A stretch of 64,000 nucleotides of DNA from Terriglobales bacterium (GTDB taxonomy: Bacteria > Acidobacteriota > Terriglobia > Bryobacterales > Bryobacteraceae): assembly GCA_027485675.1 (NCBI GenBank), contig JAIXQP010000018.1, positions 1 to 64,000 of the forward strand, in the 5' to 3' direction. The translations under genes were made by a program, and so were the position numbers. Below are positions 975-51,223 of this stretch, in pieces (the stretch's first letter is position 1; every line of letters begins with the position of its first letter). Under the pieces are notes generated by a model, which did no database searches, was not told where the DNA came from, and was given only the letters and a program-made list of their open reading frames with translations.

Positions 975-1257
975 TCTTCCACCTCCATCGCTCTTCGCAG
1001 CGCGAGTTCTATCTCTTGCCTCGGCGTCTTCTGCGTTTTCTTCACAAATACCCGCAACACGACGATGCGGCGCCTTCGGGCCGTAACGTAGATGGCACGC
1101 GAAATCCCGTCCCTGCCCTTCATACGCATCTCCCACAGTGGGCCGTCCAGATGTTTAAGGTGAGGCTCTCCAACCCCGCCAGTCCGTACGCTTGGACCAG
1201 TTCAACAATCCGCCGAAAGCGGGCTTGCATGCCAAATCGCATCTTGGCGACTTCCAT
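971..1257 (-). pseudogene. HigB/RelE-type toxin (Gp49-like), frameshifted
   Basis: The upstream half reads MQARFRRIVELVQAYGLAG in one frame; the downstream half reads PHLKHLDGPLWEMRMKGRDG and then ISRAIYVT...VLRVFVKKTQKTPRQE in another, ending at TGA 971-973. Together they match phage-derived Gp49-like/HigB toxins, whose hallmark is GPLWEMR followed by KKTQKTP. The frame changes around 1165-1171, between the leucine-rich helix and the first strand of the fold, and the downstream frame has no start codon. The toxin is thus predicted to be dead. Its stop overlaps the antitoxin start, the usual toxin-first arrangement. Confidence 0.65.
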
Positions 1258-1462
1258 CCCGCACTGGCCCGCCGCCAGCAAAAATCCCCCCTTTTTTCGC
1301 CCCGCCGAAATCGTCGTTCACAACCAATTGGCCGAAAACTGAAAATACCCTCTATCCCTCTCATTCCAAACCAAATAAAGCCCAAAAAACACCCCGTTTT
1401 CACCCCCTCCCGCGCCGGTTTCCGCTTCCCCACCCCCCACAATCACGGGTGAGAGTCCTCCC
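1258..1462. other. Non-coding leader, pyrimidine-rich, ahead of the terminase-like genes
   Basis: No convincing reading frame is seen. The plus strand is unusually poor in G: it carries runs of C and A, and from about 1340 to 1440 is almost free of G except in short words. It separates the decayed toxin-antitoxin pair from the three-gene terminase-like unit and presumably carries that unit's promoter, but no clear -35/-10 pair stands out. Confidence 0.4.
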
Positions 1463-2104
1463 ATGGAAACCAACGAATTGCAGCCCCACAAGAATTCTCG
1501 CGCCGCACAGGCGCGCATCAACGGCGCCAAGTCCCAGGGACCTGTCACCGCCGCCGGCAAGGCCCGTTCCCGCCAAGCCCGCCTCAAACACGGCCGCTAC
1601 GCCCGGTCCGAAGCCAAAGGAGCGAGTTTCCTCCTCCGCAACGAAAATCCCGAAGAGTTCGCCCTGTTCCGCCAAGGCTGGCTCGCCCGGTTCCAACCCA
1701 AAACCGTCGCCGAACAGGAATACGCCGACACCTTCATCGCCAACGAATGGCGACTCATCCGGGCCCAGGCCGCCGATACCGCGCTGCTCAATAACGAAAT
1801 CCGGTCCAACAAAGCCGCGGTCGACGCCGAAATCCAGCATCTGCCACCGGCCGAACGCGAACAAGCCCGCTTAGGCCATGCCGTCGCCTCGCTCTATGCC
1901 AAGTCGGGCGCCGCCGAAGCGCTCGATCGCAAAATCAGCCAGATGCATCGCGCCCGGTTGTCCACGCTGCAAGCCTGGGCCATCCTGCGCGACCAATTCC
2001 CCAATCCGGAAGGAAGAACCCAGGAAGTCACTCATTCCAAACCGTTTCTCTGTTCGGATCATTCAAAAACGGCTCCCGCGGGAACCCGAAAGATCCCAGC
2101 GTAA
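1463..2104 (+). CDS. Hypothetical protein with GKARS-type N-terminal motif, partner of terminase-like genes
   Basis: The 213-residue product begins with a basic motif, RINGAKSQGPVTAAGKARSR followed by QARLKHG (about residues 17-45), that I recall from numerous acidobacterial proteins of unknown function. The rest is largely helical (FQPKTVAEQEYADTFIANEW, later AAEALDRKISQMHRARLSTL). There is no signal peptide and no membrane segment. It lies 21 nt ahead of a terminase-like ATPase and reads in the same direction, so a DNA-recognition role like that of a small terminase subunit is possible, but this is inference from position alone. The tail after about residue 185 is low-complexity. The start is the ATG at 1463; no strong ribosome binding site precedes it. 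Confidence 0.65.
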   Translation: METNELQPHKNSRAAQARINGAKSQGPVTAAGKARSRQARLKHGRYARSEAKGASFLLRNENPEEFALFRQGWLARFQPKTVAEQEYADTFIANEWRLIRAQAADTALLNNEIRSNKAAVDAEIQHLPPAEREQARLGHAVASLYAKSGAAEALDRKISQMHRARLSTLQAWAILRDQFPNPEGRTQEVTHSKPFLCSDHSKTAPAGTRKIPA

Positions 2105-2125
2105 ACCCAAATTGAGGCCAATCCT

Positions 2126-2938
2126 ATGTCTATCTGGAGCTATCTCGCACTCGCGGCCGAACCGCCCGAAGCCATCTTCCGGGCCCTCATGCGGCCGGCG
2201 GCCGCCGGGCCCGTCGTCACCGCCGACCCGGCCGACCTGGCCAGCCAACTCGTCCGGTTCGCGCTGGATCCCATCCAGCTCGAAATCCTGCGTTCTCCGG
2301 CGCGGTATATCGCCCTGTGTTGCCATCGCCAATGGGGCAAGACCCAATGCGCCGCGCTCAAGGCGGTCCATCTGGCGATCTACCGGCCGGGAGCGGAAAT
2401 CATCCTGGTGGCGCCGTCGCTGCGCCAGTCCGGGGCCCTGCTGCGGGCCATCTATCAGTTCCTCGACGCGCTCCAGATTCCGGTCAAGCGCGACGGGCTC
2501 AATCGGCTTTCGATGCTCCTGCCCAACGGGTCGCACATCGTCGCCATTCCCAATACGAGCGATACCGTTCGTGGCTTCTCCAATGTCAGCCTCATCATCA
2601 TCGACGAAGCCGCCTTTATCAAGGACGAAACCTACCGCGCCGTGTTCCCGTTTCTCGCCGCGTCCAACGGCAATCTGCTCCTGTTGAGCACCCCCAATGG
2701 ACAAACCGGCTTCTTCTATCGTGCCGTGCACGAACCGCAAAACGGCTTCGTTCGCTTCCAGGTTCGCGCGTCCGAATCCAGTCGACTCACGCCGGAGTTC
2801 CTCTCGATGGCCAGGCTCGAACTCGGCGACGCCTACGCGCAGGAGTTCGAATGCAGCTTCACCATGGGCGAAGAACAGATCTTCGACCGGGACCTGATCG
2901 ATCAGGCGCTCGATCCCATCATTCAGGCATTCCGGTAA
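2126..2938 (+). CDS. Terminase large subunit-like ATPase (ATPase half only)
   Basis: This 270-residue protein carries the terminase ATPase core: a deviant Walker A CHRQWGKT (about 66-73), strand EIILVAPSLRQS (about 91-102), Walker B SLIIIDEAAF (about 155-164) and a motif III-like LLLLSTPNG (about 187-195). It ends with the EFECSF...FDRDLI stretch that in phage large terminases links ATPase to nuclease. Here the frame stops at 2938 and the nuclease begins as a separate gene seven bases later. Terminases translocate DNA into capsids, but no capsid, portal or tail gene is nearby, so the target is unknown. Both the family-level call and the motif order are clear; the biological role is not. Confidence 0.8.
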   Translation: MSIWSYLALAAEPPEAIFRALMRPAAAGPVVTADPADLASQLVRFALDPIQLEILRSPARYIALCCHRQWGKTQCAALKAVHLAIYRPGAEIILVAPSLRQSGALLRAIYQFLDALQIPVKRDGLNRLSMLLPNGSHIVAIPNTSDTVRGFSNVSLIIIDEAAFIKDETYRAVFPFLAASNGNLLLLSTPNGQTGFFYRAVHEPQNGFVRFQVRASESSRLTPEFLSMARLELGDAYAQEFECSFTMGEEQIFDRDLIDQALDPIIQAFR

Positions 2939-2944
2939 ATCCAG

Positions 2945-3640
2945 ATGACACGACCTCAGATTCCCGATACCACGCAGCGTTACTTCCTCGGCCTCGACCT
3001 CGGCAAACGCGTCGATCGCTCCGCCTTGGCTATTCTCGAACTCCAATGGGAGGGCAATAGCTTCGACTACGCCTGGCACGTCCCCATTCGAAACCCCATC
3101 GTGCGGCTCATCCGGGCGGACCGCTTTCCGCTCGGTCTGCCGTACTCCCACATTCCTGGAATTCTGTCCAGCGCGCTGCACAAACTCGAGCGGATGCCGG
3201 TCCTCCCCGGCAATGCGAGTCGCGCCTATCAGAAGGACCTCGCCGTCGATTCCGCCAATGCGGGCAGCTTTCTGCTCGAAATTCTGCAGCAGCAGCGGCT
3301 GGCCGCGACCCTGGTCCCGGTCACCATCACCGGCGGTGAGCGCGAACACCAGATCCAGGGCGGCGTGTGGTCCGTCCCGCGGCCTGTCCTCTTTTCGAAC
3401 CTGCGCATCCTCTTCGAAGCTGGCAATCTTCGCATCGCGCACGATCTGCCCGGCTACCGAACGCTCATCGAAGAGCTGCTCACGGCGAAGGCCTCCGGGC
3501 CGCAGCGCGAACATGACGACGTGGCCATCGCCGTCGCGCTGGCCGCCTGGCGCGCCGCCCGGGAGATTCCGGCGCTGCGCCAACCGCATCCCGAACGCGT
3601 TATACGATCGAAGGGAGAAAACCTCGCATGTTACTCCTAG
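2945..3640 (+). CDS. Terminase-like RNase H-fold nuclease (nuclease half as separate gene)
   Basis: The 231-residue product has the acidic residues of the terminase nuclease: Asp18 in YFLGLDLGKR, Asp102 in LAVDSANAG and the pair Asp191-192 in HDDVAIAVALAAW. In ordinary phage terminases this domain is fused behind the ATPase; here it is a stand-alone frame that starts seven bases after the ATPase gene ends. The stretch RADRFPLGLPY (about 58-68) is the usual Arg-x-Leu-x-x-Pro-Tyr-like region before the second acid. The 3' end overlaps the next gene by 13 bases. All candidate metal ligands are kept, which argues against simple decay. Confidence 0.75.
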   Translation: MTRPQIPDTTQRYFLGLDLGKRVDRSALAILELQWEGNSFDYAWHVPIRNPIVRLIRADRFPLGLPYSHIPGILSSALHKLERMPVLPGNASRAYQKDLAVDSANAGSFLLEILQQQRLAATLVPVTITGGEREHQIQGGVWSVPRPVLFSNLRILFEAGNLRIAHDLPGYRTLIEELLTAKASGPQREHDDVAIAVALAAWRAAREIPALRQPHPERVIRSKGENLACYS

Positions 3641-5169
3641 CCGCTGCTCTCATCATCGACGCGCATGTCGCCGTTCCTATGCGCGACGGCATCGTCCTCT
3701 ATGCCGACGTCTATCGTCCCGCCGAACCCGGCAAGTATCCCACGCTCGTCATCCGCACCCCCTACGGCGTCCAGCGCGACGGCATGCATACCGATGTCTT
3801 CCGCTTCGCCAACAACGGCTACGCCGTCGTCGTGCAAGACGTCCGCGGCCGCTTCGAGTCCGAAGGCAAGTGGGTCCCCTTCCGCGACGAAGCCCAGGAC
3901 GGTTACGACACCATCGAATGGGCCGCCAAACAGCCGTGGTCCTCGGGCAAGGTCGGCTCGCAGGGCGGCAGCTACCTCGGCAACAACCAGTGGCTCGCCG
4001 GCGCGCTCGCGCCGCCGCATCTGGTCACCATGTTCCCGAAGGTCGCCTCCACCAGCATCTATCACAACTGGGCCTACTTCGGCGGCGTCTTCCGCCTCTC
4101 GTTCAACTACGGCTGGGGCGTCGTCCGCATGCCCTACCGCATCATGCAGCCCCAATACTGGCACACCGAGTCCTACGCGCCGCCCGAGCTGAACTATAGC
4201 AAGCTGCTGCTGAATCCTCCGGATCGCGGCATCCAGCACTACCGCGACTGGCTCGCCCACGACAAGTACGACGACTACTGGCGGCCCTTCTCGGTCGAGG
4301 ATCGCTTCGACAAGATCAAGGCGCCCACCCACACGATGGGCGGCTGGTTCGACATCTTCCTCGCCGGCACCATCAACGGCTATACCGGCCTGCGCAAGCA
4401 AGGGGTCAAAGCCAAGATGATCGTCGGCCCGTGGGGCCACGGGCCCAGCCGCTCCTTCGGCGACCTCGACTTCGGCCCCAGCGCCAACCGCGATATGAAC
4501 GAGATCGAGACCGCCTGGTTCGATCACTACCTGAAGGGCGCCGAGAACGGCGTTGATCGCGAACCGCCCGTCGAAATCTTCTACATGGGCGCCAACAAGT
4601 GGAAGAAGGAAGCCGATTGGCCCCTGCCCAACACGAAGTACACCAACCTCTACCTCGCGGCGAACAAGACCCTCGCCGCCGAAAAGCCCGCCGCCGGCAG
4701 CGACTCCTACAACTACGACCCGAACAACCCTGTTCCCACGCTCGGCGGCAACAACTGCTGCGGCAGCCCAACGATCGCCGGGCCCAAGGACCAGAGGCCC
4801 CTCGAAAGCCGGCCCGACGTCCTCAGCTATACCGGCGCCCCGCTCGCTGCGCCGCTGGCCATCGCCGGACCAGTCAAGATGAAGCTCACCGTCGCGACTA
4901 CCGCGCCCGACATGCACTGGATGGTCAAACTCATCGACGTCCACCCCGACGGCAAAGCCTACAACATCGCCGAAGGCATGCTCCGCTGCGTCGCCCGCGA
5001 ATGCGAGGTCGACATGGTTGGCACCGCGAACGTCTTCCTGCGCGGCCACAGCATCCGCGTGGACATTACATCGAGTAACTTCCCGCAGTTCGCCCGAGCC
5101 CCGCACGCCGGCAAAAACACCGTCTTCCACGGCTCGCACATCGTGCTGCCCGTGGTTCCGTTACCCTAG
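3628..5169 (+). CDS. CocE/NonD family hydrolase (X-Pro dipeptidyl-peptidase S15-like)
   Basis: A 513-residue serine hydrolase. Near the N terminus it has VPMRDGIVLYADVYRP and TPYG, typical of the S15/CocE alpha/beta hydrolase. The triad can be placed at Ser115 (SQGGSYLGNNQ), Asp242 (MGGWFDIF) and His271 (VGPWGHG). The part after about residue 300 fits the C-terminal jelly-roll domain of the family. Members cleave acyl groups from amino acids, esters or beta-lactam side chains; the substrate here cannot be told. The first ten residues are hydrophobic (MLLLAAALII), which may be a shortened signal peptide or simply the start. The ATG has GAAGGGAG a few bases upstream, and the gene begins within the end of the nuclease gene. 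Confidence 0.85.
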   Translation: MLLLAAALIIDAHVAVPMRDGIVLYADVYRPAEPGKYPTLVIRTPYGVQRDGMHTDVFRFANNGYAVVVQDVRGRFESEGKWVPFRDEAQDGYDTIEWAAKQPWSSGKVGSQGGSYLGNNQWLAGALAPPHLVTMFPKVASTSIYHNWAYFGGVFRLSFNYGWGVVRMPYRIMQPQYWHTESYAPPELNYSKLLLNPPDRGIQHYRDWLAHDKYDDYWRPFSVEDRFDKIKAPTHTMGGWFDIFLAGTINGYTGLRKQGVKAKMIVGPWGHGPSRSFGDLDFGPSANRDMNEIETAWFDHYLKGAENGVDREPPVEIFYMGANKWKKEADWPLPNTKYTNLYLAANKTLAAEKPAAGSDSYNYDPNNPVPTLGGNNCCGSPTIAGPKDQRPLESRPDVLSYTGAPLAAPLAIAGPVKMKLTVATTAPDMHWMVKLIDVHPDGKAYNIAEGMLRCVARECEVDMVGTANVFLRGHSIRVDITSSNFPQFARAPHAGKNTVFHGSHIVLPVVPLP

Positions 5170-7766: not shown

Positions 7767-8253
7767 GATCAGCCTCCGGAATCTCATACCGGGCCTCGCG
7801 CCCGGGAGTCGTTCGCACCGCATAACTCCGGCCCCGGAGCCGGACATGCCACCACTCCTTGGCGATCGCCTCGGCCTCGTCCTCCGGCGCGGCGAACTCG
7901 GCCTCGTCCACGGCAACGTTCTTCAGCGACCCGCCATCCCAGCGATACGCCACGTTCTGACCCTTCAGCCAAACACCGGTTTCGCTGAACCGGGCCTCCT
8001 CGGCGGGGAGCCGGGCCACCGTCGCACCGGTCGCATCCAAGCGCTCAATCTCCGCTTCCGTACGAAGCCAACCGCCATCGCCGTACCAGGCAAAACCCAA
8101 GACGCCCTCGCGCACGACCGCGCCGGGGACAAAGCTGCCCGCCACACCATGGAGCGAACGAACCCGATTCTGCGCATCGCGCCAGAACCCGATGCGGGGA
8201 GCCTCGATCTGGCCGAAGGCAACCAAACAGAAGAAAAAGACTATGTATCTCAT
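7750..8253 (-). CDS. Small secreted protein of unknown function
   Basis: A 167-residue product with a signal peptide (MRYIVFFFCLVAFGQ) and no family I recognise. The mature part carries short repeats of the kind IGFWRDAQNRVRSLHGVAGS and VLGFAWYGDGGWL, suggesting a small beta-propeller-like or beta-sheet fold, and an acidic stretch (DEAEFAAPEDEAEAIAKEW). It starts inside the end of the previous gene by the ATGA overlap at 8250-8253 and ends inside the next gene's start, so the three secreted-protein genes are expected to be translated together. Confidence 0.65.
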   Translation of the reverse strand: MRYIVFFFCLVAFGQIEAPRIGFWRDAQNRVRSLHGVAGSFVPGAVVREGVLGFAWYGDGGWLRTEAEIERLDATGATVARLPAEEARFSETGVWLKGQNVAYRWDGGSLKNVAVDEAEFAAPEDEAEAIAKEWWHVRLRGRSYAVRTTPGREARYEIPEADHEESR

Positions 8254-40912: not shown

Positions 40913-42121
40913 CTAATTCTTCGTTTCTTTCGAGGATTCAAGCCGGACCTTCGCCATCTGCATTTCCCAGATATCCGCCGCCTGGATCTCATCCTGCTTC
41001 AGCGCGTGGCTGTAGACCTTCGCGGTTACGCCCGTATCCTTGTGACCCAGGCGCGAGCTCACCGCGGGAAGTGGAACGCCGCCGCTTAAGAGTTGGCTCC
41101 CGTAGCTGTGGCGTAGGCTGTGAAGGCTCACCTGCTTTAATCCGGCCTTTCGCAGCATTCTTGTCGCCGCCGTGGAAACGGAACTAGGCGAACGATGCCG
41201 GCCGAGTTCATCGCCGAAAACGAGATCGGCTTCGGGCTGGTGGAGGGCCGCAATCCGCTGGCGCTGAATCTCCTGCTCCATTCGGTGGGCCTGGAGTACT
41301 TCAATCGCAGTGGGGGCAAGTTGGGCAACCCGCGCCATTCTTCCCTTTGTGCACTTGACCCGTAAGCCGGTACTGGACTGCTCGAGGTTTTTCGATATGG
41401 TTACGGTGCGAGCCTTGAAATCGATGTCCGACCACTCAAGGGAAAGCAGTTCGCCGCGCCTGGCGCCCGTCGCAGCACCCAGGACGAGTATCGGGTAGAT
41501 CCAAGTCCCTTTGGCAAACTGCAGGAGCATGTCGGTTTGCTTGAAGTCGAGGGCGATCTTCTCGGCCTCATGGATCGGGGGCATACTCACGACGTCACAG
41601 GGGTTTGAAGGAATCAATCCCCAACGAACCGCGCTCTTCAGAACGCCACTCAGTACGGTGCGGACGGAACGAACGGTTTTAGGCGCGAGGCCTTTTCTAC
41701 GGTCGCCTTTCAGCACCCGCCGCGCTCCCGTCTTCAGGAGCCCATTGAGCACTTGCTCGACTTGCATGGTCGTGATGTCCGCAAGGCGCATCGGTCCAAG
41801 TTCCGGCAGGAAGAAGCTTGCCAAGTACTCGTAGCGTTCAACTGTGGCCGCCGTGCATCGGCCGGAGGCGAACTCCCTGATCCATCGTGGGAAGAACTGC
41901 GCCAGCGTCCCAGGATCGCGCCGCGCCGCCTCTGCCGCCGCCTTCTCTGCCTTCCATTCGGCTATCGCCTTATCTTTGGCGTCTTCGGCGTCTCGCTTGA
42001 GAGGAAAGCCCGAGCCGTAAAGGAAGCGCTTCTTTCCCGCCGCATCCTTCCCGACGAAGACGCTGTATCCCCAGGAGGGCGCGTTCTTTCGCTTCGAGCG
42101 ATTGAAGATTGAGCCTGTCAT
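40913..42121 (-). CDS. Tyrosine-type site-specific integrase
   Basis: 402 residues. SAM-like core-binding region around TLAQFFPRWIREFASG and PKTVRSVRTVLSGVLKSAVR; catalytic domain with Arg in LGAATGARRGELLSLEWSDI, HSLRHSYGSQLL (HxxR), the His in RLGHKDTGVT and the tyrosine in VYSHAL. An arm-binding-like N terminus (SWGYSVFVGKDAAGKKRFLY) is typical of phage/island integrases. It sits at the extreme left next to the att site and overlaps the regulator's stop (ATGA), so the two are cotranscribed away from the rest. Confidence 0.93.
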   Translation of the reverse strand: MTGSIFNRSKRKNAPSWGYSVFVGKDAAGKKRFLYGSGFPLKRDAEDAKDKAIAEWKAEKAAAEAARRDPGTLAQFFPRWIREFASGRCTAATVERYEYLASFFLPELGPMRLADITTMQVEQVLNGLLKTGARRVLKGDRRKGLAPKTVRSVRTVLSGVLKSAVRWGLIPSNPCDVVSMPPIHEAEKIALDFKQTDMLLQFAKGTWIYPILVLGAATGARRGELLSLEWSDIDFKARTVTISKNLEQSSTGLRVKCTKGRMARVAQLAPTAIEVLQAHRMEQEIQRQRIAALHQPEADLVFGDELGRHRSPSSVSTAATRMLRKAGLKQVSLHSLRHSYGSQLLSGGVPLPAVSSRLGHKDTGVTAKVYSHALKQDEIQAADIWEMQMAKVRLESSKETKN

Positions 42122-42594
42122 TCTGACTCGACCTCATCCTCTAGCCGCTCTTTGGAGTCGGTACGGAAGGGATTGGCCTCCTCTAAAATTTGGAGCGCCG
42201 CCCGAAGTTTCAGCGCGGCCAATTGGATTGCCTGCTGTTCTTCCGTCGTTGACCATTTCAACTTGGGGATGTCCTCAGTAAGGACTCCACGGATCAATGT
42301 CGCTGCCCGAAGGGAGATCTTGGCCGATACCCCAAGGCTTTGAATGATCTTGTCGTTGAAGTAGGTGGCGAGATCCATATGGTTTTTCTCGGCTGCAAGG
42401 TTGGCGAATACGGTCATTTGACCAGGTTTGGGGATTCGGTCTGACTCGTAGTGCGCAATCGTCCGAATCGCCAAACCGAGATCGTTGGCGAACTGCTGTT
42501 GAGTTCTGCCGAGCCTTCGGCGCAACTCCTTAATCGCTTCCGGCACACTCAATTCCAGTGGATAGTGTTCAAGTTTGTTTTCTTGTTCCTGCAC
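42118..42594 (-). CDS. XRE-family regulator (satellite repressor candidate)
   Basis: The GTG at 42594, with AGGA a few bases upstream, is the chosen start; the longer frame runs through the divergent promoter. The 158-residue product has an HTH near the N terminus: VPEAIKELRRRLGRTQQQFA and NDLGLAIRTIAHYESDRIPK, then a helical part (ISLRAATLIRGVLTEDIPKL). It reads away from the excisionase/replication genes, across a region with repeated ATGCAC words, so it probably represses the early promoter. Integrase follows by ATGA overlap. Confidence 0.8.
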   Translation of the reverse strand: MQEQENKLEHYPLELSVPEAIKELRRRLGRTQQQFANDLGLAIRTIAHYESDRIPKPGQMTVFANLAAEKNHMDLATYFNDKIIQSLGVSAKISLRAATLIRGVLTEDIPKLKWSTTEEQQAIQLAALKLRAALQILEEANPFRTDSKERLEDEVESE

Positions 42595-42606
42595 GTTTTT
42601 TTCCTG

Positions 42607-42635
42607 TTGACATGCACGAGCGTTCCGGTTAGAGT
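42607..42635 (+). promoter_or_regulatory. Sigma-70-type early promoter, TTGACA-17-TAGAGT
   Basis: A consensus -35 (TTGACA, 42607-42612) and a -10-like TAGAGT (42630-42635), separated by exactly 17 bases, face the excisionase and replication genes. It is the only clear consensus promoter noticed by eye in the element. Its ATGCAC word falls in the spacer. Confidence 0.6.
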
Positions 42636-42676
42636 GGTGAACAGTTGGGCATGCACACTTTGGATTATCCGTGCAT
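42612..42676. promoter_or_regulatory. Phased ATGCAC/GTGCAT operator candidates
   Basis: ATGCAC occurs at 42612-42617 and 42651-42656 and its complement GTGCAT at 42671-42676. The starts are 39 and 20 bases apart, close to four and two DNA turns. One word is inside the promoter spacer, so binding of the XRE protein could shut off the early genes. Confidence 0.45.
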
Positions 42677-42691
42677 TCTCTGGTCCTGTCA

Positions 42692-42910
42692 ATGCCAAAA
42701 ACTCTACTCACTCCCAAAGACCTCGAAGCTGAGCTTCCCGACTTGGGCCGCTCGACCATCTACTCTCTGCTCAAGGCCGGAACGATTCCCTCGATTCGTC
42801 TCGGCAAGAAATTCTTCACCCCGCGAGCCGCGTTTGAGAAGTGGCTTGCGAACTGCTGCGAGTTAGCTATCCCGAACAACGCCGCCAAGGAGGGCGATCA
42901 AGGTGCCTAA
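42692..42910 (+). CDS. Excisionase/MerR-type small DNA-binding protein
   Basis: 72 residues from ATG 42692. The start MPKTLLTPKDLEAELPDLGR with STIYSLLKAGTIPSIRLGKK and FFTPRAAFEKWL is the winged-helix HTH_17 layout (LxxxLGxSxxTVYxLLxxGxIPxxRIGxxxxxxRxxLxxWL) of excisionase and AlpA-like proteins. It is the first gene behind the early promoter and reads divergently from the XRE gene. Likely role: directing excision by the integrase, or activating it, as AlpA does in P4-like elements. Confidence 0.83.
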   Translation: MPKTLLTPKDLEAELPDLGRSTIYSLLKAGTIPSIRLGKKFFTPRAAFEKWLANCCELAIPNNAAKEGDQGA

Positions 42911-43088
42911 GAGAATTCCACCGGATTCCCCGAAGAAAGGGAAGACACTTTTGAAGAAGGTGTTGCAGATGCCTTCCCGAGAGAAGACGCCTGCCCAGAA
43001 GCGAGCCGACGATCTCAACCGCGCAGCGCGCTGCCTTGAGCTGCTCGCCCGCCTTCTCCGGCGCATTGCGTTGGAGGTGGGCGACTGA
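42903..43088 (+). CDS. Small basic protein of unknown function
   Basis: GTG at 42903 with AAGGAGGG about eight bases upstream; 61 residues, very basic and helical: KRIPPDSPKKGKTLLKKVLQ, QKRADDLNRAARCLELLARL, LRRIALEVGD. It overlaps the previous stop by 8 bases and its own stop overlaps the next ATG (TGATG). The good ribosome site and the tight packing make it a real gene. It may bind nucleic acid. Confidence 0.6.
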   Translation: MPKRIPPDSPKKGKTLLKKVLQMPSREKTPAQKRADDLNRAARCLELLARLLRRIALEVGD

Positions 43089-43291
43089 TGAGCCGCCCCC
43101 GTGTGAACGGGTTCGACCCTCAAACGCCGAAGCTGAAGCGGCTGCAGCGTCGTCTCGACGTTGCCAACCTGAATGGCGTCGTTCGCGTCCTGAAGCGGTA
43201 CGGCACCCATGACGACCTGGCCGCCGCGACGTTGGCGCTGTGGTGTATCAGCGGACCGGCGCGGGAGAAGGCGCGGGAGGCCAGCGAATGA
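43088..43291 (+). CDS. Small protein of unknown function upstream of primase
   Basis: 67 residues: NGFDPQTPKLKRLQRRLDVA, NLNGVVRVLKRYGTHDDLAA, ATLALWCISGP. No motif recognised. Both ends overlap neighbours (TGATG and ATGA), so it is translated together with the primase-helicase and may be a partner of it. Confidence 0.55.
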   Translation: MSRPRVNGFDPQTPKLKRLQRRLDVANLNGVVRVLKRYGTHDDLAAATLALWCISGPAREKAREASE

Positions 43292-45489
43292 GTGCCGCCG
43301 CGGTTCAGCCGCGCCGCGTTGCTCCTCGTGTGCCTTCCGAGCTCCTCGACTTGGCCCAGTGGTGCCTATGGGGGCTGCACGAGGGGAGAAAGCGCCCCAT
43401 GGCACTGGAGGGTTACTGGGGGAGTTCGACCAACCCGGCGACGTGGGGAGAATACGCCGAAGCTATCGAGGCACTGGAGAACGTTCGAAACGCCGAGGGC
43501 ATAGGGTTCGTATTTACGGCCGACGACCCTTACACTGGCGTTGACCTGGACGACTGCCTGGACAACGCCGGCCGCCTGAAGCCGTGGGCTGTCGATATCC
43601 TTCGCCGGTTCGCTGGCACCTATGCCGAAGTCTCCCCGAGCGGGAGCGGCATCAAGCTGTGGTGTCGTGGCACCACCACCGCCGCCGCCAAGTTCGCCTA
43701 TCATGACGGGGCCATTGAGATCTATTCGACCGCACGGTTCTTCACCGTCACCGGCAACCTGTGGCCCGGTTCACTCCTGGAGATCGCCGATTGTCAGGAG
43801 TCGCTTGATTGGCTGCTGACGCTGAATCCGGCTGGAGCGAAGAAAGGGCCGTTTGTGCTGCCGGAGAAGATCAACCACCCGACCCAGCATAAAGACTTGC
43901 TGAGTCTGGCTGGTTCCTATCGAAGCAAAGGGATGAACCAAGCGGAGATCGAGGCCGCCTTGATTGCAGTGAGTAAGGCACGCTGCGAAGAGATTCCGCC
44001 CGAGTCTCATATGCGGACGATGGCCGCAAGCGTTTGCAAGTATCCTCCGGGGCCTTCGCTGGAGCTCGCCCAGCAAGTAGACCGGCCAACAAACTTCGGC
44101 TGGCACGATACCGGGAACGCGGACCGCCTAGTATGCCGACACGGATCAGAGCTGCTTTGGTGCGAGGAGCGTAAATCCTTTGGAGTCTGGACGGGCCAGT
44201 ATTGGAAACTCGGATCAGACTTACTGGTCAAGCGAATGGCCGAAAGAGTAATGCGAGACGCCTACGCCGAAGTCGGATCGATCGACGATACGGACAAGCG
44301 GAAAGAGTTTTTGCGGTTCCTGAATAAATCACTCTCCCGTTCTGGCGTGGCGAATATGGTGGAAGTCGCCCAGCGGAAGGTAGACCTGGTTTCGCCTGGC
44401 GACTTTGACGCCGATCCGTTTCTGTTGAACTTCGAAAACGGAACACTAGACCTCAGAAGCGGATTACTTCGGGAGCATCGACCGGCGGACAAGATCACGC
44501 GATGCATCCCATATGCGTTCGATTGGAACGCGCCATGCTCGAGGTTTCACCGATTCTTAGGCCGGATCATGGGCGACCATCCGGCCGCGACCCCCCAGGA
44601 GTGCGAGCGGGCCTATCGAATCATTGGCTACCTGCAGCGCCTCTTTGGATGCGCCTTGACCGGCAAGCCGGAGAAGATTCTCGCAATCCTGCACGGATCG
44701 GGGAACAACGGCAAAAGCACCTTGATAGAGACCATTCGAGCCGCGTTGGGCGGCAAGCAGTACGCCGGCCAAATGCAAATTGAATCCCTGATGGTCAACC
44801 CAGCACAGGCTTCTGGTTCCAACGCGATCAACGCTGACCTGGCGGACCTGCAGGGATGCCGGTTTGTGACCGCCAGTGAGCCGGAAAAGGGGATGCGGTT
44901 CTCTGTTGCTCGTATCAAGTACCTGACCGGCCTAACCGAGGTGAAGGCCCGGTATCTGAAAGAGAACCCTTTCACTTTCAAGCCGAGTCACAAGGTCTTT
45001 GTCGACGCCAACGATAGGCCGATCATCAACGATCCGCACGATGCAGTATGGAACCGCGTGAAGCTGATCCCGTTCGAAGTGAAGATCCCTGATAGTGAAA
45101 TCGACACCGGCTTAGGCGATGCCCTACTGAAGGAACTACCGGGCATAATGGCCTGGCTTGCAGAGGGCGCCCGCGAGTACATCCGCCACGGATTGCAGGA
45201 GATCCCCGAAGTTTCGGCCGCCACCGAGGAATACCGGCAGGAGTCCGACCGGCTTAAAGACTTCATCGAGGATCACTGCATCGTTCTGCCTACCGCTTGG
45301 GTAGGCGTCTCTAACCTTTGGGATGCCTACCGCAAGTGGGAAGAGGAAAACGGCGTCAAGTTCCCGCTCGTGAAAACCGCTTTCGATGAGCGTATTCAAC
45401 GACTTGGCTGCACAAAGAAGGTGAAGGAGTGCGGGACTATACGCGCTTGGCAGGGCATCGGCCTGAAGGCTAGTGGAGTGACAAAGTGA
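43288..45489 (+). CDS. P4-type primase-helicase (AEP-like primase plus D5/SF3 helicase)
   Basis: 733 residues from ATG 43288 (ATGA overlap). The N-terminal part has a primase-polymerase-like active site GIGFVFTADDPYTGVDLDDC (DxD-type acids about 86-89) and YAEVSPSGSGIKLWCRG (about 107-123, GSGIKxW is a catalytic motif). D5 N-terminal region FDADPFLLNFENGTLDLRSG, then an SF3 helicase with Walker A ILHGSGNNGKSTLIETI (about 467-483), CRFVTASEPEKGMRF (Walker B region), PSHKVFVDANDRPIINDPHD and AVWNRVKLIPFEV. Such proteins start replication of P4-like satellites and bind repeats near the origin. Repeats follow the gene directly. Confidence 0.9.
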   Translation: MSAAAVQPRRVAPRVPSELLDLAQWCLWGLHEGRKRPMALEGYWGSSTNPATWGEYAEAIEALENVRNAEGIGFVFTADDPYTGVDLDDCLDNAGRLKPWAVDILRRFAGTYAEVSPSGSGIKLWCRGTTTAAAKFAYHDGAIEIYSTARFFTVTGNLWPGSLLEIADCQESLDWLLTLNPAGAKKGPFVLPEKINHPTQHKDLLSLAGSYRSKGMNQAEIEAALIAVSKARCEEIPPESHMRTMAASVCKYPPGPSLELAQQVDRPTNFGWHDTGNADRLVCRHGSELLWCEERKSFGVWTGQYWKLGSDLLVKRMAERVMRDAYAEVGSIDDTDKRKEFLRFLNKSLSRSGVANMVEVAQRKVDLVSPGDFDADPFLLNFENGTLDLRSGLLREHRPADKITRCIPYAFDWNAPCSRFHRFLGRIMGDHPAATPQECERAYRIIGYLQRLFGCALTGKPEKILAILHGSGNNGKSTLIETIRAALGGKQYAGQMQIESLMVNPAQASGSNAINADLADLQGCRFVTASEPEKGMRFSVARIKYLTGLTEVKARYLKENPFTFKPSHKVFVDANDRPIINDPHDAVWNRVKLIPFEVKIPDSEIDTGLGDALLKELPGIMAWLAEGAREYIRHGLQEIPEVSAATEEYRQESDRLKDFIEDHCIVLPTAWVGVSNLWDAYRKWEEENGVKFPLVKTAFDERIQRLGCTKKVKECGTIRAWQGIGLKASGVTK

Positions 45490-45583
45490 CAGGTAGTGAC
45501 AGTATTTCCCCTATGCCTTACGAGGCAAAAAGAACAACTCAATCCTTAGTGGTTTTGGTGTCACTCGATGTCACTATGTCACT
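45477..45583. repeat. Mirror-symmetric heptamer repeats, candidate replication origin
   Basis: AGTGACA occurs at 45477, 45485 and 45495; its complement TGTCACT at 45559, 45569 and 45577. Steps are 8 and 10 on the left, 10 and 8 on the right, an exact mirror. The 57 bases between are AT-richer than the surroundings and contain a small hairpin (TGCCT/AGGCA, 45514-45527). It overlaps the stop of the primase-helicase gene. In P4 the initiator binds iterons at the origin, which makes this the best candidate origin in the element. Iterons may alternatively serve transcription. Confidence 0.6.
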
Positions 45584-45598
45584 CGACGAGGCAACCCG

Positions 45599-45805
45599 AT
45601 GAGCTTCCAACCCTACATCGTGCGGATTCGCCCCTGCCGCATCTGCCACGACCCGACGCCCGCGCATCGGCGGGAGCGGTTCTGTTCACCCGCCTGCCGC
45701 GCCGTCTGGAAGGAATCGTATGGTGCTCTATCCGCAGCACCGCTCGACGAATCAAACGCAACCGAAAATAACTCCCGAAATCGAAAAGGAGGCTCCAATG
45801 CCTGA
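45599..45805 (+). CDS. Small zinc-finger-like protein
   Basis: 68 residues from ATG 45599. RPCRICHDPTPAHRRERFCS and PACRAVWKES has CxxC...H...C...C, a small metal-binding finger as seen in phage-encoded zinc-ribbon/HNH-like scraps. Ends in a polar tail (DESNATENNSRNRKGGSNA). The 3' end overlaps the next start. It is the first gene behind the candidate origin. Confidence 0.55.
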   Translation: MSFQPYIVRIRPCRICHDPTPAHRRERFCSPACRAVWKESYGALSAAPLDESNATENNSRNRKGGSNA

Positions 45806-45989
45806 TTCAGACTTCAAGAAATTCATGCTGGGCCTGCGGGCCGATGCGAGACTCGGCCGGTACGTCGCGCCAGTCTGCGAGCAAACGCCCGAGGTTGTCG
45901 TTCTGACGCTGACCATGGCGCTGGCGGACGCCCGAGAGGGAAACAACCCGCACCCGGCGCACGAGCTCCTGGAGAGGCTCCAATCATGA
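45798..45989 (+). CDS. Small protein of unknown function before small terminase
   Basis: 63 residues from ATG 45798, with AAAGGAGG six bases upstream, the best ribosome site in this part. FKKFMLGLRADARLGRYVAP and VVVLTLTMALADAREGNNPH; no recognised domain. It overlaps both neighbours (8 and 4 bases), which supports reality. It might regulate the late module. Confidence 0.55.
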   Translation: MPDSDFKKFMLGLRADARLGRYVAPVCEQTPEVVVLTLTMALADAREGNNPHPAHELLERLQS

Positions 45990-46276
45990 GACCACCTAAA
46001 CACCTATCCGCCGAGAGCCGGAAGCTATTCCGGGAAATCGCCGCCGCCGTCGAGCTCGACGCCCAAGCCGCCACACTCCTACAGGGAGCGCTCGAGCAAT
46101 GGGACCGCGCCCAAGCCGCCCGCGCCCAGGTCACCGCCGATGGGCTCATGGTCGACGGCAAGCGCCATCCGCTGATCGAAGTGGAGAAGGCCGCGTATCG
46201 GGGAGCGCTGGCTTACTTCCGGGAGCTTGGCTTAGATCCGCCCAACCCGGTGGGACGCCCGAGCACGAGTTTATAG
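45986..46276 (+). CDS. Small terminase subunit (P27-like)
   Basis: 96 residues: RPPKHLSAESRKLFREIAAA, VELDAQAATLLQGALEQWDR, ADGLMVDGKRHPLIEVEKAA and YFRELGLDPPNPVGRPSTSL. The 'PPxHLSxxSRxLFREI...HPLIxVExxA...FRxLGLxP' grammar is that of P27-type small terminases. They recognise packaging sites in the element's DNA. Preceded by ATGA overlap; the large subunit is separated by a small membrane protein gene. Confidence 0.88.
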   Translation: MRPPKHLSAESRKLFREIAAAVELDAQAATLLQGALEQWDRAQAARAQVTADGLMVDGKRHPLIEVEKAAYRGALAYFRELGLDPPNPVGRPSTSL

Positions 46277-46314
46277 TATGATTCACACCACCACCCCAAA
46301 TCGCAGCGCTACCT

Positions 46315-46662
46315 ATGGAAATCATTATTTTCCCAGTAGTCATACTGGTCATACTTGGCCTGTTCCTGAATGGGTTATACAAGATGGTGACCGCATTAGC
46401 TCAAGGCCGCCAACCAGACGACGGCTTTATGGTCGTAATCGGTTATCTTCTCTTTTTGTGCAACTTGTATCCATTCGTTTTGATCGCGAAAGCGTATGGG
46501 TTTTGGGGAGGCGCCTTGTATCTTGGCTGCTCCTACCTAGCCTTTCTCCACGTGATTCTGCCATGGATAGGAGCACTTCGCAGAAGCGACTTGCCCGACA
46601 AGGGGAAGCGAGATGAGAAGGCTAAAGCGCCGCACAACCCTCAGGGCATCAACCGGCGCTGA
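46315..46662 (+). CDS. Small three-TM membrane protein between terminase genes
   Basis: 115 residues from ATG 46315. Three hydrophobic segments: IIIFPVVILVILGLFLNGLY (3-22), FMVVIGYLLFLCNLYPFVLI (38-57) and ALYLGCSYLAFLHVILPWIG (67-86), then a charged tail RRSDLPDKGKRDEKAKAP. It overlaps the large terminase gene by 50 bases in another frame. The stretch is AT-richer than the rest of the element. The slot between small and large terminase is often used for HNH genes; a membrane protein here is unexpected and could be cargo affecting helper or superinfecting phages. Confidence 0.6.
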   Translation: MEIIIFPVVILVILGLFLNGLYKMVTALAQGRQPDDGFMVVIGYLLFLCNLYPFVLIAKAYGFWGGALYLGCSYLAFLHVILPWIGALRRSDLPDKGKRDEKAKAPHNPQGINRR

Positions 46663-48238
46663 CCCTATCGCCGAAGCGCTGGCCGGGCTCTCCGGGGCCG
46701 AGCGGGTTATCCGGTTCATAGAGACGTTCCTGCGTCACTCGAAGGGATTCCGAGCCGGGGAGCCGTTCATCCTGGCCGACTGGCAGAAGGATGAAATCAT
46801 CCGGCCGCTGTACGATGCCATCGGCGAAGAAGGGCGCCGCCGCTACCGGCAAGGCTACGTCTCCATGGCACGGAAGGCCGGCAAGACCTGTTTAGCCGCG
46901 GCGCTGGCACTCTATCACCTGCTAGGCGACGAGGACATGGAGCCCGGCATCCGGGAAGTTTACGCCGCCGCCGCAAGCCGAGATCAAGCGGGGCTGCTGT
47001 TCATCCAAGCGGCCGACTTCGTGAACGCATCGCCCGAGCTATCCGCCCGCTGCGTCGTCTCCCGCGCAACCAAGCGAATCACCGACCGCGTGAGCCGTTC
47101 GTTCCTCCGCGCCGTCTCCGCGGATGCCCACACACAGCACGGGCTCAACGCCGCGTTCGTCGTCCTCGACGAGATCGCCCAGCAACCCAACCGGGATCTC
47201 TTCGACGTTCTCCAGACTTCCCAGGGAGCCCGCCGCAATCCGCTGATACTGGCCATCGGCACCGCGGGCAATGATCGCAACTCCATCGCATACGAGCTCT
47301 ACCAGCACGGCAAGCGAGTCCTGGCCGGAGACGCCGTCGACCGGAGTTTCTTCGCCTGCGTCAAAGAGCTTCCCGAGGGCCTGGACTGGGCCGAGGAGTC
47401 CAACTGGATCTATGCCAATCCGGGCTTAGACGACTTCCGCGACCGGCAGGAGCTCCGCGATATGCGCGACCGGGCCTTACTGCTGCCGAGCTTGGCCGGG
47501 ACGTTCCAGAACCTCTACTGCAATCAATGGACCGATGCTGAGACGACCTGGCTGTCAATGTCCGCATGGGACGAATGCGCCGGTATGGTGACCGATGCCG
47601 AGTTACAGAAGGCGACCGCATACGCGGGGCTCGACCTATCGAGTACGACCGACCTAACTGCGCTGGCGATTGTCTTCCGCCTGCCTGACGACCGCTACGC
47701 CGTCAAGACGTGGGCCTGGATTCCCGAGGCTGGCATCGTCGAGCGGGAGCGCCGCGACCGTGTTCCCTATCGCCAGTGGATCAAGGAAGGGCGCGTCGAG
47801 ACGACGCCCGGAGACGTGATTGATTCCCGCATCGTCGCCCGCCGCTGCATCGAGGAGTGCGAGCGCTGGAACGTCCGTTACTTGGCCTTCGACCGCTGGG
47901 GCTCTAAGATCGTCACGCCGATTCTGCAGGAGGCCGGGCTCGAAATCTTCGAGCATGGGCAAGGGTTCCGCGATATGTCGCCACCGACCAAGCACCTGCA
48001 GGATCTTGTACTTTCCCGCCGCCTGCTGCATGGAGGCTGCCCGCTGCTTCGCTGGCAGGCATCGACGGTAACGGTAGCGTCTGATCCCGCTGGCAACATC
48101 AAGCTGGTGAAACCCGATGCCATGGCCTATGCCAAGCGGATTGACTGCATCATCGCAACTGTGATGGCGCTATCTCCCGCCGCCGCATTTCCGCCCGTGG
48201 ATCACTCCGGGCTGTTCTCCGAACTCATTTCATTCTGA
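46613..48238 (+). CDS. Large terminase subunit
   Basis: 541 residues. Walker A-like GYVSMARKAGKTCLAAALAL (about 82-101), Walker B AAFVVLDEIAQQ (about 182-193), motif III-like ILAIGTAGND; nuclease domain with YAGLDLSSTTDLTALAIVF (Asp about 345) and YAKRIDCIIATVMAL at the end. ATPase and nuclease are fused as usual, in contrast to the split pair at 2.1-3.6 kb. It pumps DNA through the portal and cuts it. Start ATG 46613 lies within the membrane protein gene. Confidence 0.92.
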   Translation: MRRLKRRTTLRASTGADPIAEALAGLSGAERVIRFIETFLRHSKGFRAGEPFILADWQKDEIIRPLYDAIGEEGRRRYRQGYVSMARKAGKTCLAAALALYHLLGDEDMEPGIREVYAAAASRDQAGLLFIQAADFVNASPELSARCVVSRATKRITDRVSRSFLRAVSADAHTQHGLNAAFVVLDEIAQQPNRDLFDVLQTSQGARRNPLILAIGTAGNDRNSIAYELYQHGKRVLAGDAVDRSFFACVKELPEGLDWAEESNWIYANPGLDDFRDRQELRDMRDRALLLPSLAGTFQNLYCNQWTDAETTWLSMSAWDECAGMVTDAELQKATAYAGLDLSSTTDLTALAIVFRLPDDRYAVKTWAWIPEAGIVERERRDRVPYRQWIKEGRVETTPGDVIDSRIVARRCIEECERWNVRYLAFDRWGSKIVTPILQEAGLEIFEHGQGFRDMSPPTKHLQDLVLSRRLLHGGCPLLRWQASTVTVASDPAGNIKLVKPDAMAYAKRIDCIIATVMALSPAAAFPPVDHSGLFSELISF

Positions 48239-48302
48239 AAGTGCTTTATACTGACAAGTAGATATCTAAATCAGCGCTGCGATAGTGCGAAGGAACGTTC
48301 CC

Positions 48303-49502
48303 ATGAAACCAACCTACGCTGAAGCCGTTGCGCTGCATAGCGAACTCACCGGCATCATTGCCAAAGCCGCCGCCGAAAGCCGCGAGCTTACCGATAACGA
48401 GAAGACCCGCGTTGTCGAGATTCAAACCAAATCGGCCGAGTTTCAGGCCGCCGCCGTCGATGCCTCCGAAGGCCGCAAAGCCTTCCTGAGTGGCGTCGAG
48501 AAGAGCGACCGGAAGAAGGGCCTGGTGCTCAAGGGCGCCGATAGCTTCGCCGATCACTTCAAGACCGGCGACGAGCCCGAGCTTAGCCTGGCGAAGTCCC
48601 TGCGCGGCTACCTGACCGGCGAATGGGACGGGGCTGAACTCGAGCGCAAGGCTATGGCGTCGAGCGCCCTTGGCGCGATTCTCCCCACGCCGATCAGCAA
48701 CCAGATTATCGACCTGGCGCGGAATCAGAGCACCGTCATTCGGGCCGGGGCTGTTACCGTGCCGATGACGACCGCGACCCTGAAGCTGGCGCGGATGACC
48801 GGCGACGTTACGGCCGCCTGGTACGCCGAAGCCGGGGAGATCAGCGAATCGGACGCCACCCTGGACAGCGTGACCCTGACCGCCCGCAAGATGGCCTGTC
48901 TGGTCCGCATCAACCGCGAGATCCTGGAGGACTCCGACCCTGGCGTCGACGGCATCATCCGCAACTCTGTGGCCCAAGCCATGGCCCTGGAGCTCGACCG
49001 TGTGGCGCTGGTAGGCACCGGCACGGCACCGCAACCGCGTGGCCTGCAGAACTTCTCCGGCATCAACACCGTTACCAGCGTGGGGACGCCGGCCGATTAC
49101 TCGAAGTTTCTCGATGCCATCTTCGAGGTACGCCTGGACAACTTCGAGCCCAACGCGATCATCAATTCCGTGCGCACGGCGAAGACCCTGGCGAAGCTGT
49201 ACACCGGCATTTCCAGCGACAAAACGCCGCTGACCGCACCGGCTGACTACACCGCGTTGCAGCGCTTCGCGTCCAATCAGGTTCCCGTCAACCTTGGCGT
49301 CGGCACCAACGAATCGTTGGCCTTTGTCGGCGACTTCTCCCAACTGATGATTGGCCTTCGCCAGAACATCATCGTAGAAGTCTCGAACGCCGCGAAGGAT
49401 GTCTTCGAGAAGGATCAGATTATGCTTCGCGCCACTTGGCGCGGCGACGTTCAGGTCACCCGCGCAACCGCGTTCTGCCTGATGTCCGGCATCACTGCCT
49501 AA
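48303..49502 (+). CDS. HK97-type major capsid protein
   Basis: 399 residues from ATG 48303 (AAGGAA ahead). An N-terminal scaffold-like delta segment (about 1-115, coil KPTYAEAVALHSELTGIIAK and EIQTKSAEFQAAAVD) is followed by the mature capsid fold: SALGAILPTPISNQIIDLAR, RARMTG-like LARMTGDVTAAWYAEAGEIS, VRINREILEDSDPGVDGIIR, and LMIGLRQNIIVEVSNAAKDV to QIMLRATWRGDVQV. The presumed protease site precedes about residue 115. It is placed ahead of portal and protease, the reverse of the common order. Confidence 0.92.
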   Translation: MKPTYAEAVALHSELTGIIAKAAAESRELTDNEKTRVVEIQTKSAEFQAAAVDASEGRKAFLSGVEKSDRKKGLVLKGADSFADHFKTGDEPELSLAKSLRGYLTGEWDGAELERKAMASSALGAILPTPISNQIIDLARNQSTVIRAGAVTVPMTTATLKLARMTGDVTAAWYAEAGEISESDATLDSVTLTARKMACLVRINREILEDSDPGVDGIIRNSVAQAMALELDRVALVGTGTAPQPRGLQNFSGINTVTSVGTPADYSKFLDAIFEVRLDNFEPNAIINSVRTAKTLAKLYTGISSDKTPLTAPADYTALQRFASNQVPVNLGVGTNESLAFVGDFSQLMIGLRQNIIVEVSNAAKDVFEKDQIMLRATWRGDVQVTRATAFCLMSGITA

Positions 49503-49511
49503 CCCTGATGG

Positions 49512-49529
49512 GGGCTCTTCGGAGCCCCT
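49512..49529 (+). terminator. Intercistronic UUCG-capped hairpin behind capsid gene
   Basis: GGGGCTC and GAGCCCC pair perfectly around a TTCG loop, ten bases behind the capsid stop and 20 ahead of the portal start. No run of T follows, so it is probably an attenuator or RNA stabiliser that raises the ratio of capsid to portal. Confidence 0.6.
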
Positions 49530-49548
49530 ACTCCGAAATGGAGGGACC

Positions 49549-50745
49549 ATGATCCGAAAGGCAATCGAGTATCTTCTCACCAAGTCGGGTTTCGCCCGCC
49601 CGGAGCCCTGGCTCCGCGATACGTTAGGCATCCAAGAGACCTGGAGCGGGGCCGAAGTCACCGCTGAGAACTCGCTCCAGTCTTCCGCCGTGGCCGCCTG
49701 CGTCCGCCTCCTCTCTGAGAGCGTGGCATCGCTGCCGCTGTTCGTCTATCGTCGCACCGACGACGACAAGGCGAAGGCGCCGGACCATCCGTTGTATGCC
49801 ATCCTGCACGACCAACCGAACGATTATCAATCGGCCTGGACGTTCAAACAACAACTGCTGTCCCACGTTCTGCTCTACGGCAACGCCTACAGCATCATCG
49901 ACCGCGACGACTCCGGCCGCGTGAAGGCGCTATGGCCGCTGATGCCGGGAAACGTGTCTATCCGCGCCGTCGATGGCCGCCTGGTCTATGAGGTATGGCA
50001 GAACGGCAAGCGGGCGGAATACGATTCTGAGGACGTGCTCCACGTTCGCGGGCCAAGCTTGGACGGTATCCGCGGCATGAGCATTATCAGCATGGCGCGG
50101 CAAGGCATCGGCCTGGATCAAGCGCTGGCGCAACACGGCGCTAGCACGTTCAAGAATGGCGGCCGCCCGGGGCTGATCGTGAAGACGCCGCAAGTACTCA
50201 ACAACGAAGCCCGCCAACAATTTGTCAAGAGTTGGGCCGATCAATTCTCCGGGGCTCTCCGTGCGGGAAAGACGGCGTTGGTCGATGGTGGCTTCGACGT
50301 TCAGGAAATCAAGTCGAGCAACGACGACGCCCAGTTTCTGCAATCGCGTCAATTCAGCGTTCAGGAGATCGCCCGATGGTTCCGCGTAAGCGCCCACATG
50401 ATCGGCGACCCGTCGCGCCTGGCCTACGCCAGTAGCGAAGTCGAGATGCTGGCCTTCCTGCAGCATTCCTTGCGCCCGTGGCTGGTGAACATAGAGAGCG
50501 AGATCAACCGGACGTTGCTACCGTGGCGAACGCAATTCTTCGCCGAGTTCAGCATCGACGCCCTGCAGCGGGCCGACACCAAGAGCCGGTATGAGTCCTA
50601 CGCCATCGGCATCGACAAGGGCTTTCTGGAGGTCGAGGACATTCGCAAGTGGGAGAATCTCCCGCCCAAGCGGACGCCCGCCGCCGCGCCCGCAATGATT
50701 CCTGCGCAACCCGCGCCCGAGGTGACCGCCGATGTTGTTCAATGA
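49549..50745 (+). CDS. HK97-family portal protein
   Basis: 398 residues: VTAENSLQSSAVAACVRLLS, SVASLPLFVYRRTDDDK, ILHDQPNDYQSAWTFKQQLL, LLYGNAYSIIDRDDSGRVKA, LHVRGPSLDGIRGMSIISMA, GRPGLIVKTPQVLNNEARQQ, IARWFRVSAHMIGDP (the portal signature 'ARxFxVPPxxIG'), RTLLPWRTQFFAEFSIDALQ. Full-length and intact. It would form the dodecameric entry for DNA. The protease gene starts 14 bases inside its end. Confidence 0.92.
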   Translation: MIRKAIEYLLTKSGFARPEPWLRDTLGIQETWSGAEVTAENSLQSSAVAACVRLLSESVASLPLFVYRRTDDDKAKAPDHPLYAILHDQPNDYQSAWTFKQQLLSHVLLYGNAYSIIDRDDSGRVKALWPLMPGNVSIRAVDGRLVYEVWQNGKRAEYDSEDVLHVRGPSLDGIRGMSIISMARQGIGLDQALAQHGASTFKNGGRPGLIVKTPQVLNNEARQQFVKSWADQFSGALRAGKTALVDGGFDVQEIKSSNDDAQFLQSRQFSVQEIARWFRVSAHMIGDPSRLAYASSEVEMLAFLQHSLRPWLVNIESEINRTLLPWRTQFFAEFSIDALQRADTKSRYESYAIGIDKGFLEVEDIRKWENLPPKRTPAAAPAMIPAQPAPEVTADVVQ

Positions 50746-51223
50746 ACTGGAGCTCAAGAGCCTGACTGAGGCGGGAGAGTTCGAGGGATGGGCCGCCCGC
50801 TACTCGAACGTGGATTCCCAGAACGATCGCATCGAGCCGGGGGCCTTCGCCGCGGATGACGGGAAGGAAATCCCGATTCTCTGGAACCACAAACAGGATG
50901 TTGTGGCCGGAGTCGGCACCCTGCAGGAGCGCCCGGAAGGGCTCTATCTCAAGGGCCGTTTGCTACTCGACACGACCGAGGGCCGGGACGTATACGCCCG
51001 ACTCCGAGCGGGAGCCGCGAAAGGTTTGTCCGTGGGTTTCCGACTGCTCGAAAAGGCCGCCGAGGGAGCCCTGCGGCTGATCCTGCGGGGCTCCGTGGCC
51101 GAAGTGAGCGTTACCACCTTTCCCGCCAATCCCGCCGCCCTGGTGACCGCTGTGAAGGCGAAGCCGGGGCCGTGCGAATCCATTCACCGACTTTTAGCAC
51201 CGGAGCTCTACCTCCGGCGCTAG
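50732..51223 (+). CDS. HK97-family prohead protease
   Basis: 163 residues: FEGWAARYSNVDSQNDRIEP, IPILWNHKQDVVAGVGTLQE (His about 51), GRDVYARLRAGAAKGLSVGF (Ser about 97), LRGSVAEVSVTTFPANPAAL. These are the His and Ser of the HK97 U35-type protease that trims the capsid delta domain. The length is at the short end for the family but the catalytic part is whole. It overlaps the portal gene by 14 bases and is the last head gene. Confidence 0.9.
   Translation: MLFNELELKSLTEAGEFEGWAARYSNVDSQNDRIEPGAFAADDGKEIPILWNHKQDVVAGVGTLQERPEGLYLKGRLLLDTTEGRDVYARLRAGAAKGLSVGFRLLEKAAEGALRLILRGSVAEVSVTTFPANPAALVTAVKAKPGPCESIHRLLAPELYLRR

Follow-up and report, generated by a model that had tools for sequence, protein, structure and literature searches.

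Terminases serve as markers of phages and prophages, and in known phages packaging starts at the small terminase gene and runs toward the large one. The large terminase of phages, such as T4 gp17 and the TerL proteins of Thermus phage P74-26 and phage D6E, is composed of an ATPase domain and an RNase H-type nuclease domain. Phage satellites, which include the capsid-forming PICIs (cf-PICIs), carry terminase genes outside of a complete phage (PMC10690885). In the lateral transduction of defence islands, the terminase is supplied by a prophage or a PICI, and the islands lie downstream of it (PMC12829572). In the literature searched, no paper was found on orphan terminases or on split terminase genes.

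The cassette described here belongs to a bacterial genome of 6.59 Mb. The analysed stretch of DNA, which is referred to as the window, comprises the initial 64 kb of its contig 33. The host genus appears to be Candidatus Sulfopaludibacter (Bryobacteraceae/Solibacteraceae), which NCBI taxonomy lists under Solibacteraceae and other record titles assign to Bryobacteraceae. As the initial annotation had noted, three co-directional open reading frames encode a small protein with a GKARS motif, a terminase-type ATPase and a separate nuclease (Table 1). The nuclease gene extends at its 3' end into the beginning of the core gene that follows, and blastn similarity of the window to the corresponding loci of G014, G001, G011, G009 and G008 begins at 1255-1313. 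The trio has further copies in its genome, which contains a total of seven ATPase, six nuclease and 18 small-protein genes.

Table 1. Features of the terminase-like cassette and of a separate element in the window.
Feature	Position	Strand	Remarks
Conserved cassette, leader and three genes	1255..3640	+	Left edge approximates the start of nucleotide similarity to orthologues of other species
Leader box, GTTCACAAC	1316..1324	+	147 bases 5' of the small-protein start
Small GKARS protein, 213 aa	1463..2104	+	Open reading frame; short N-terminal helices, then a long coiled coil
Terminase-type ATPase, 270 aa	2126..2938	+	Pfam Terminase_6N (1.8e-10); PHROG 7579 "terminase large subunit" (2.7e-37)
RNase H-type terminase nuclease, 231 aa	2945..3640	+	PHROG 27743 (9.1e-17)
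cf-PICI-like element	40913..51223		

The ATPase and the nuclease share all catalytic residues with phage large terminases. The Walker A lysine is present in 98 and the Walker B glutamate in all of 99 aligned ATPase copies, in which the residues of the coupling motif are also kept, and the acidic triad of the RNase H-type nuclease appears as three columns that hold aspartate wherever a letter stands in 70 aligned sequences (68, 70 and 68). Both halves retain their catalytic residues, as had been noted initially, with near-invariance over about 100 copies. For a homologue in which the ATPase and nuclease are fused, the predicted structure (mean pLDDT 71) is that of a large terminase with two domains, and its best structural match, T4 gp17 (E 2.8e-18), extends over both of them, although the pTM of 0.45 leaves the placement of one domain relative to the other uncertain. 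Unlike phage TerL, the cassette usually has the two activities in separate genes, has no adjoining portal or capsid gene, and is found in many chromosomal copies.

Among orthologues at the window site in seven species, dN/dS ranges from 0.03-0.21 for the ATPase and from 0.05-0.29 for the nuclease. For the small protein it is 0.14-0.57 (window trio against orthologues in six other species), and the adjoining core genes S15, LamG and ThiD give comparison values of 0.05-0.19. The ATPases of near copies that are dispersed in one genome yield 0.04-0.14. Judged by these ratios, selection on the cassette is purifying, which together with the near-invariant catalytic residues supports the earlier notion of function rather than decay.

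A search of acidobacterial genomes, which the initial annotation had proposed, revealed ATPase matches in 19/19 genomes of the genus, with 3-23 in each, and dozens of genera of the family carry the cassette. In a set of 299 genomes from the class, only this family has strong matches in multiple copies; genomes outside of it have only weak matches that are nearly always single. The arrangement of the genes varies: 61 copies in the genus comprise 22 that are split, 17 with a fused ATPase-nuclease and 22 that lack the nuclease, and 40 copies from other genera comprise 32, 3 and 5, respectively, such that the nuclease is absent beside 27 of 101 ATPases. In a tree rooted with sequences from Ancylobacter, Bradyrhizobium and a viral contig, all of which are split, the fused copies of the genus form one clade, indicating that fusion is derived and the split state ancestral. 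Hence the window gene is no recent breakage, and the origin of the two halves from a recently broken single gene, which had been named as an outcome that would speak against the initial reading, is ruled out. In six other copies the small protein and the ATPase form a single open reading frame of 475-480 aa; these fusions, along with those of ATPase and nuclease, provide the strongest indication of a joint function of the three proteins. In G010, the cassette orthologous to that of the window has a partially duplicated nuclease (L101:4554-5600).

Elsewhere, the closest relatives are split trios carried by small plasmids and satellite-like elements. A comparison with 50,697 phage records gave Thermus and Meiothermus phage terminases as the best matches of the ATPase (39-40%); the window nuclease and the small protein have no match in these records, and the small protein was found twice in viral contigs. 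Split trios of the same order are present in an Ancylobacter element, together with an integrase and MmeI-type restriction-modification; in Bradyrhizobium, 3' of a probable primase; and on plasmids of 11-16 kb from Salinibacter ruber and Streptomyces virginiae, with a primase plus ParA or an integrase. In addition to the trio and the MmeI-type enzyme, the Ancylobacter element (L364:4157-14532) has a P4-type integrase and a 448-aa protein that matches no known family. PHROG 27743 is also the family of the nucleases from both plasmids tested; among the plasmid genes tested, no capsid or portal family was seen, with two genes giving weak tape-measure matches. The Salinibacter ruber plasmids pSR11 and pSR14 have the cassette's order of small protein, ATPase and nuclease, and their ATPases are 34-41% identical to that of the cassette (nuclease 31% for pSR14), but they differ from it as plasmids of 11-15 kb with a primase and ParA, and their small protein matches another PHROG.

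The surroundings of the window trio contain no integrase, portal or capsid gene within 37 kb, and no head, portal or tail genes stand beside the terminase in its own genome. The only portal and capsid genes of this genome are found in the same window, 45-48 kb from the trio, in a separate cf-PICI-like element that has an integrase, an HTH regulator, a primase, a small TerS-like gene, capsid, portal and protease genes, and its own, different large terminase of 542 aa. None of the genome's four integrases is near any of its seven ATPase copies. The cassettes do not combine an integrase, a regulator and a primase in the same element, as PICIs, cf-PICIs and P4-like satellites do, and they differ from phage satellites in the lack of integrase, primase and capsid. 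The initial statement that phage structural genes and integrases are missing nearby is thereby confirmed, and the copies examined do not lie inside complete prophages, the other outcome that had been named as contradicting it. The further statement that the motor is not connected to phage heads is correct for the gene neighbourhood, but heads from a phage or from the cf-PICI-like element could still serve for docking.

The place of the window copy beside core genes is kept in G001, G014, G010, G008, G009 and G011. A different location in G008, G009 and G011 was considered and rejected, as the LamG and ThiD neighbours identify the same site with other genes in between. The search for a clean empty site yielded a contig end in G012 and a decayed copy in G018, and G012:C374 had no clean junction. 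Neither inverted ends nor target-site duplications were seen at the ends of four dispersed copies or at 3' junctions. A repeat of about 95 bases, often paired, recurs at dozens of dispersed positions in G008, G009 and G011 (e.g., L281:6675-6863 and 7837-8024).

The small protein belongs to no family in Pfam, PHROG and further family searches. Its predicted structure (mean pLDDT 77) matches only coiled coils in the PDB, with no small-terminase fold among the matches; it is proposed to be a small-terminase-like partner of the ATPase. Near the ATPases of other genera, it was recognized by its motif in 12 of 40 copies. Its leader carries a box, GT(T)CACA[A/G], in 19 of 28 non-redundant leaders, compared to 1.3 in shuffles and 1/25 controls. 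In the window this box overlaps a promoter-like match, TTCACA-18-GAAAAT, and a promoter-like pair follows the box in many copies, as judged by eye; the box may be a promoter element or a binding site. A hairpin with a T-run is found in 13/28 leaders against 0-1 in shuffles. Solo small-protein genes have a similar leader, with the strict box in 1/10. Several of these stand between core genes (L264, L265, L266, L267, L269 and L271) and, in addition to the leader architecture, have a conserved downstream tail with CCCGAAGTGTGTC repeats. A palindrome, GGGGACA...TGTCCCC, lies between the small-protein and ATPase genes at L081 (~4880-4970) and is kept in four dispersed copies of G017.

Within the genus, the cassettes sit at a boundary between core genes on the 3' side and a variable 5' island, in which genes for defence and toxin-antitoxin systems are frequent (Hma, BREX, Dnd, Lamassu). 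The 5' side of the window-copy orthologues differs wherever it is readable, with HmaB, HmaC and a PifA-like protein in G008, DndB and an Old/AriA-like ATPase in G014, and Lamassu LmuA in G001, and another copy in the window's own genome is near BREX genes. Across 29 cassettes of the genus, PADLOC matches (threshold 1e-15) were found for at least 15/115 proteins on the 5' side, a lower bound, against at most 4/101 on the 3' side (p = 0.028); against background proteins (at most 2/86) the 5' side is likewise enriched (p = 0.009). The 5' flank has the lower GC content in 27/32 genus copies (58.7 vs 63.2%), and contigs break 39 times on the 5' side and eight times on the 3' side. Owing to orthologues, these comparisons are not fully independent, and genes were called with a simple script. 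The comparison with defence islands that had been called for therefore supports an association with defence genes within the genus. Elsewhere in the family the link is suggestive: BrxL, HmaC, Cas9, Cas1, a SAVED protein and DarG are encoded near ATPases of other genera, the enrichment there is not significant (about 8/127 vs 2/86 proteins, p = 0.32), and no GC polarity is seen at the 32 loci tested among the 40 copies (p = 0.59). Polarity thus finds no support as a general law and is specific to the genus. In another genus, a Cas9-like gene is located upstream of a terminase ATPase (L417:5313-8399).

The cassette resembles the setting of lateral transduction in that a terminase is near defence islands and could package adjoining DNA; the difference is that no phage is present here and the island is on the opposite side. 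The small-to-large direction of packaging would here lead away from the island, which does not fit lateral transduction of the island, and this explanation was rejected.

The best explanation, with a probability of roughly 35%, is that the cassette is a chromosomal, capsid-less terminase module, derived from a satellite and kept by the host, that acts in phage infection. The small protein would bring the ATPase motor to DNA, along with the nuclease in copies that have one, and together the three would rebuild a small/large terminase. The module probably acts when phages infect the cell. Most likely it docks on proheads of phages or cf-PICIs, so that other DNA is packaged in place of phage DNA; this would hamper the phage and might now and then transfer neighbouring DNA from cell to cell, and diverged copies would fit different phage portals. 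Action on phage heads is what we infer from the activities of terminases, and the function of the module as a whole is likewise inferred. Consistent with this explanation are the two-domain TerL homology, the near-invariant catalytic residues, the fusions, the purifying selection, the presence in 19/19 genomes, the satellite and plasmid relatives and the 5' defence genes. Speaking against it are the 22/61 genus copies that lack a nuclease, a small protein with no detectable small-terminase fold that is recognized near only 12/40 copies of other genera, the lack of significant defence enrichment and of polarity outside of the genus, and the packaging direction. A more far-reaching proposal is tentative and rather doubtful: a host-owned, capsid-less terminase system across a bacterial family would take over or block the packaging step of phages that enter the cell, and might carry defence genes to other cells in the heads of these phages.

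Other explanations account for parts of these observations. The conserved ATPase and nuclease sites, the defence-gene neighbourhood in the genus and the lack of adjoining head genes would also fit a stand-alone, capsid-free anti-phage system, in which foreign DNA, once bound by the small protein, is translocated by the ATPase and cut by the nuclease, and nuclease-less copies block or recruit another enzyme. This is unlikely, as the three trio proteins themselves have no PADLOC match and no large terminase is known to act in cells without a portal. Equally unlikely is a selfish module that multiplies within genomes, spreads between them and builds up in islands that tolerate insertions: G017 contains near copies (85-90%) with unrelated flanks, copies are many per genome and some have lost the nuclease, but neither inverted ends nor a consistent right end were seen, and the window copy, which is under purifying selection, has kept its site in several species.

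The polarity of the genus copies, in GC content and contig breaks, and the position of the box close to the start of similarity would be accounted for by a device at the island edge that cuts or marks the leader and so promotes exchange of the island's content. This is improbable, considering that the polarity is absent in the 40 copies of other genera, that no second box was found at the far end of the G014 island examined, and that the box may be a promoter. The terminase homology, the decayed G018 copy and the nuclease-less copies could be taken as signs of decaying prophage remnants, an explanation made very improbable by purifying selection, near-invariant catalytic residues and the presence in every genome of the genus.

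A family with many selected terminase copies and no adjoining phage indicates that terminases can be a misleading marker, and what was a packaging motor seems to have turned into a host trait. If the module acts on infecting phages, it would represent a mechanism of defence or transfer that operates at packaging, and it would bear on the movement of chromosomal defence islands without an integrase.
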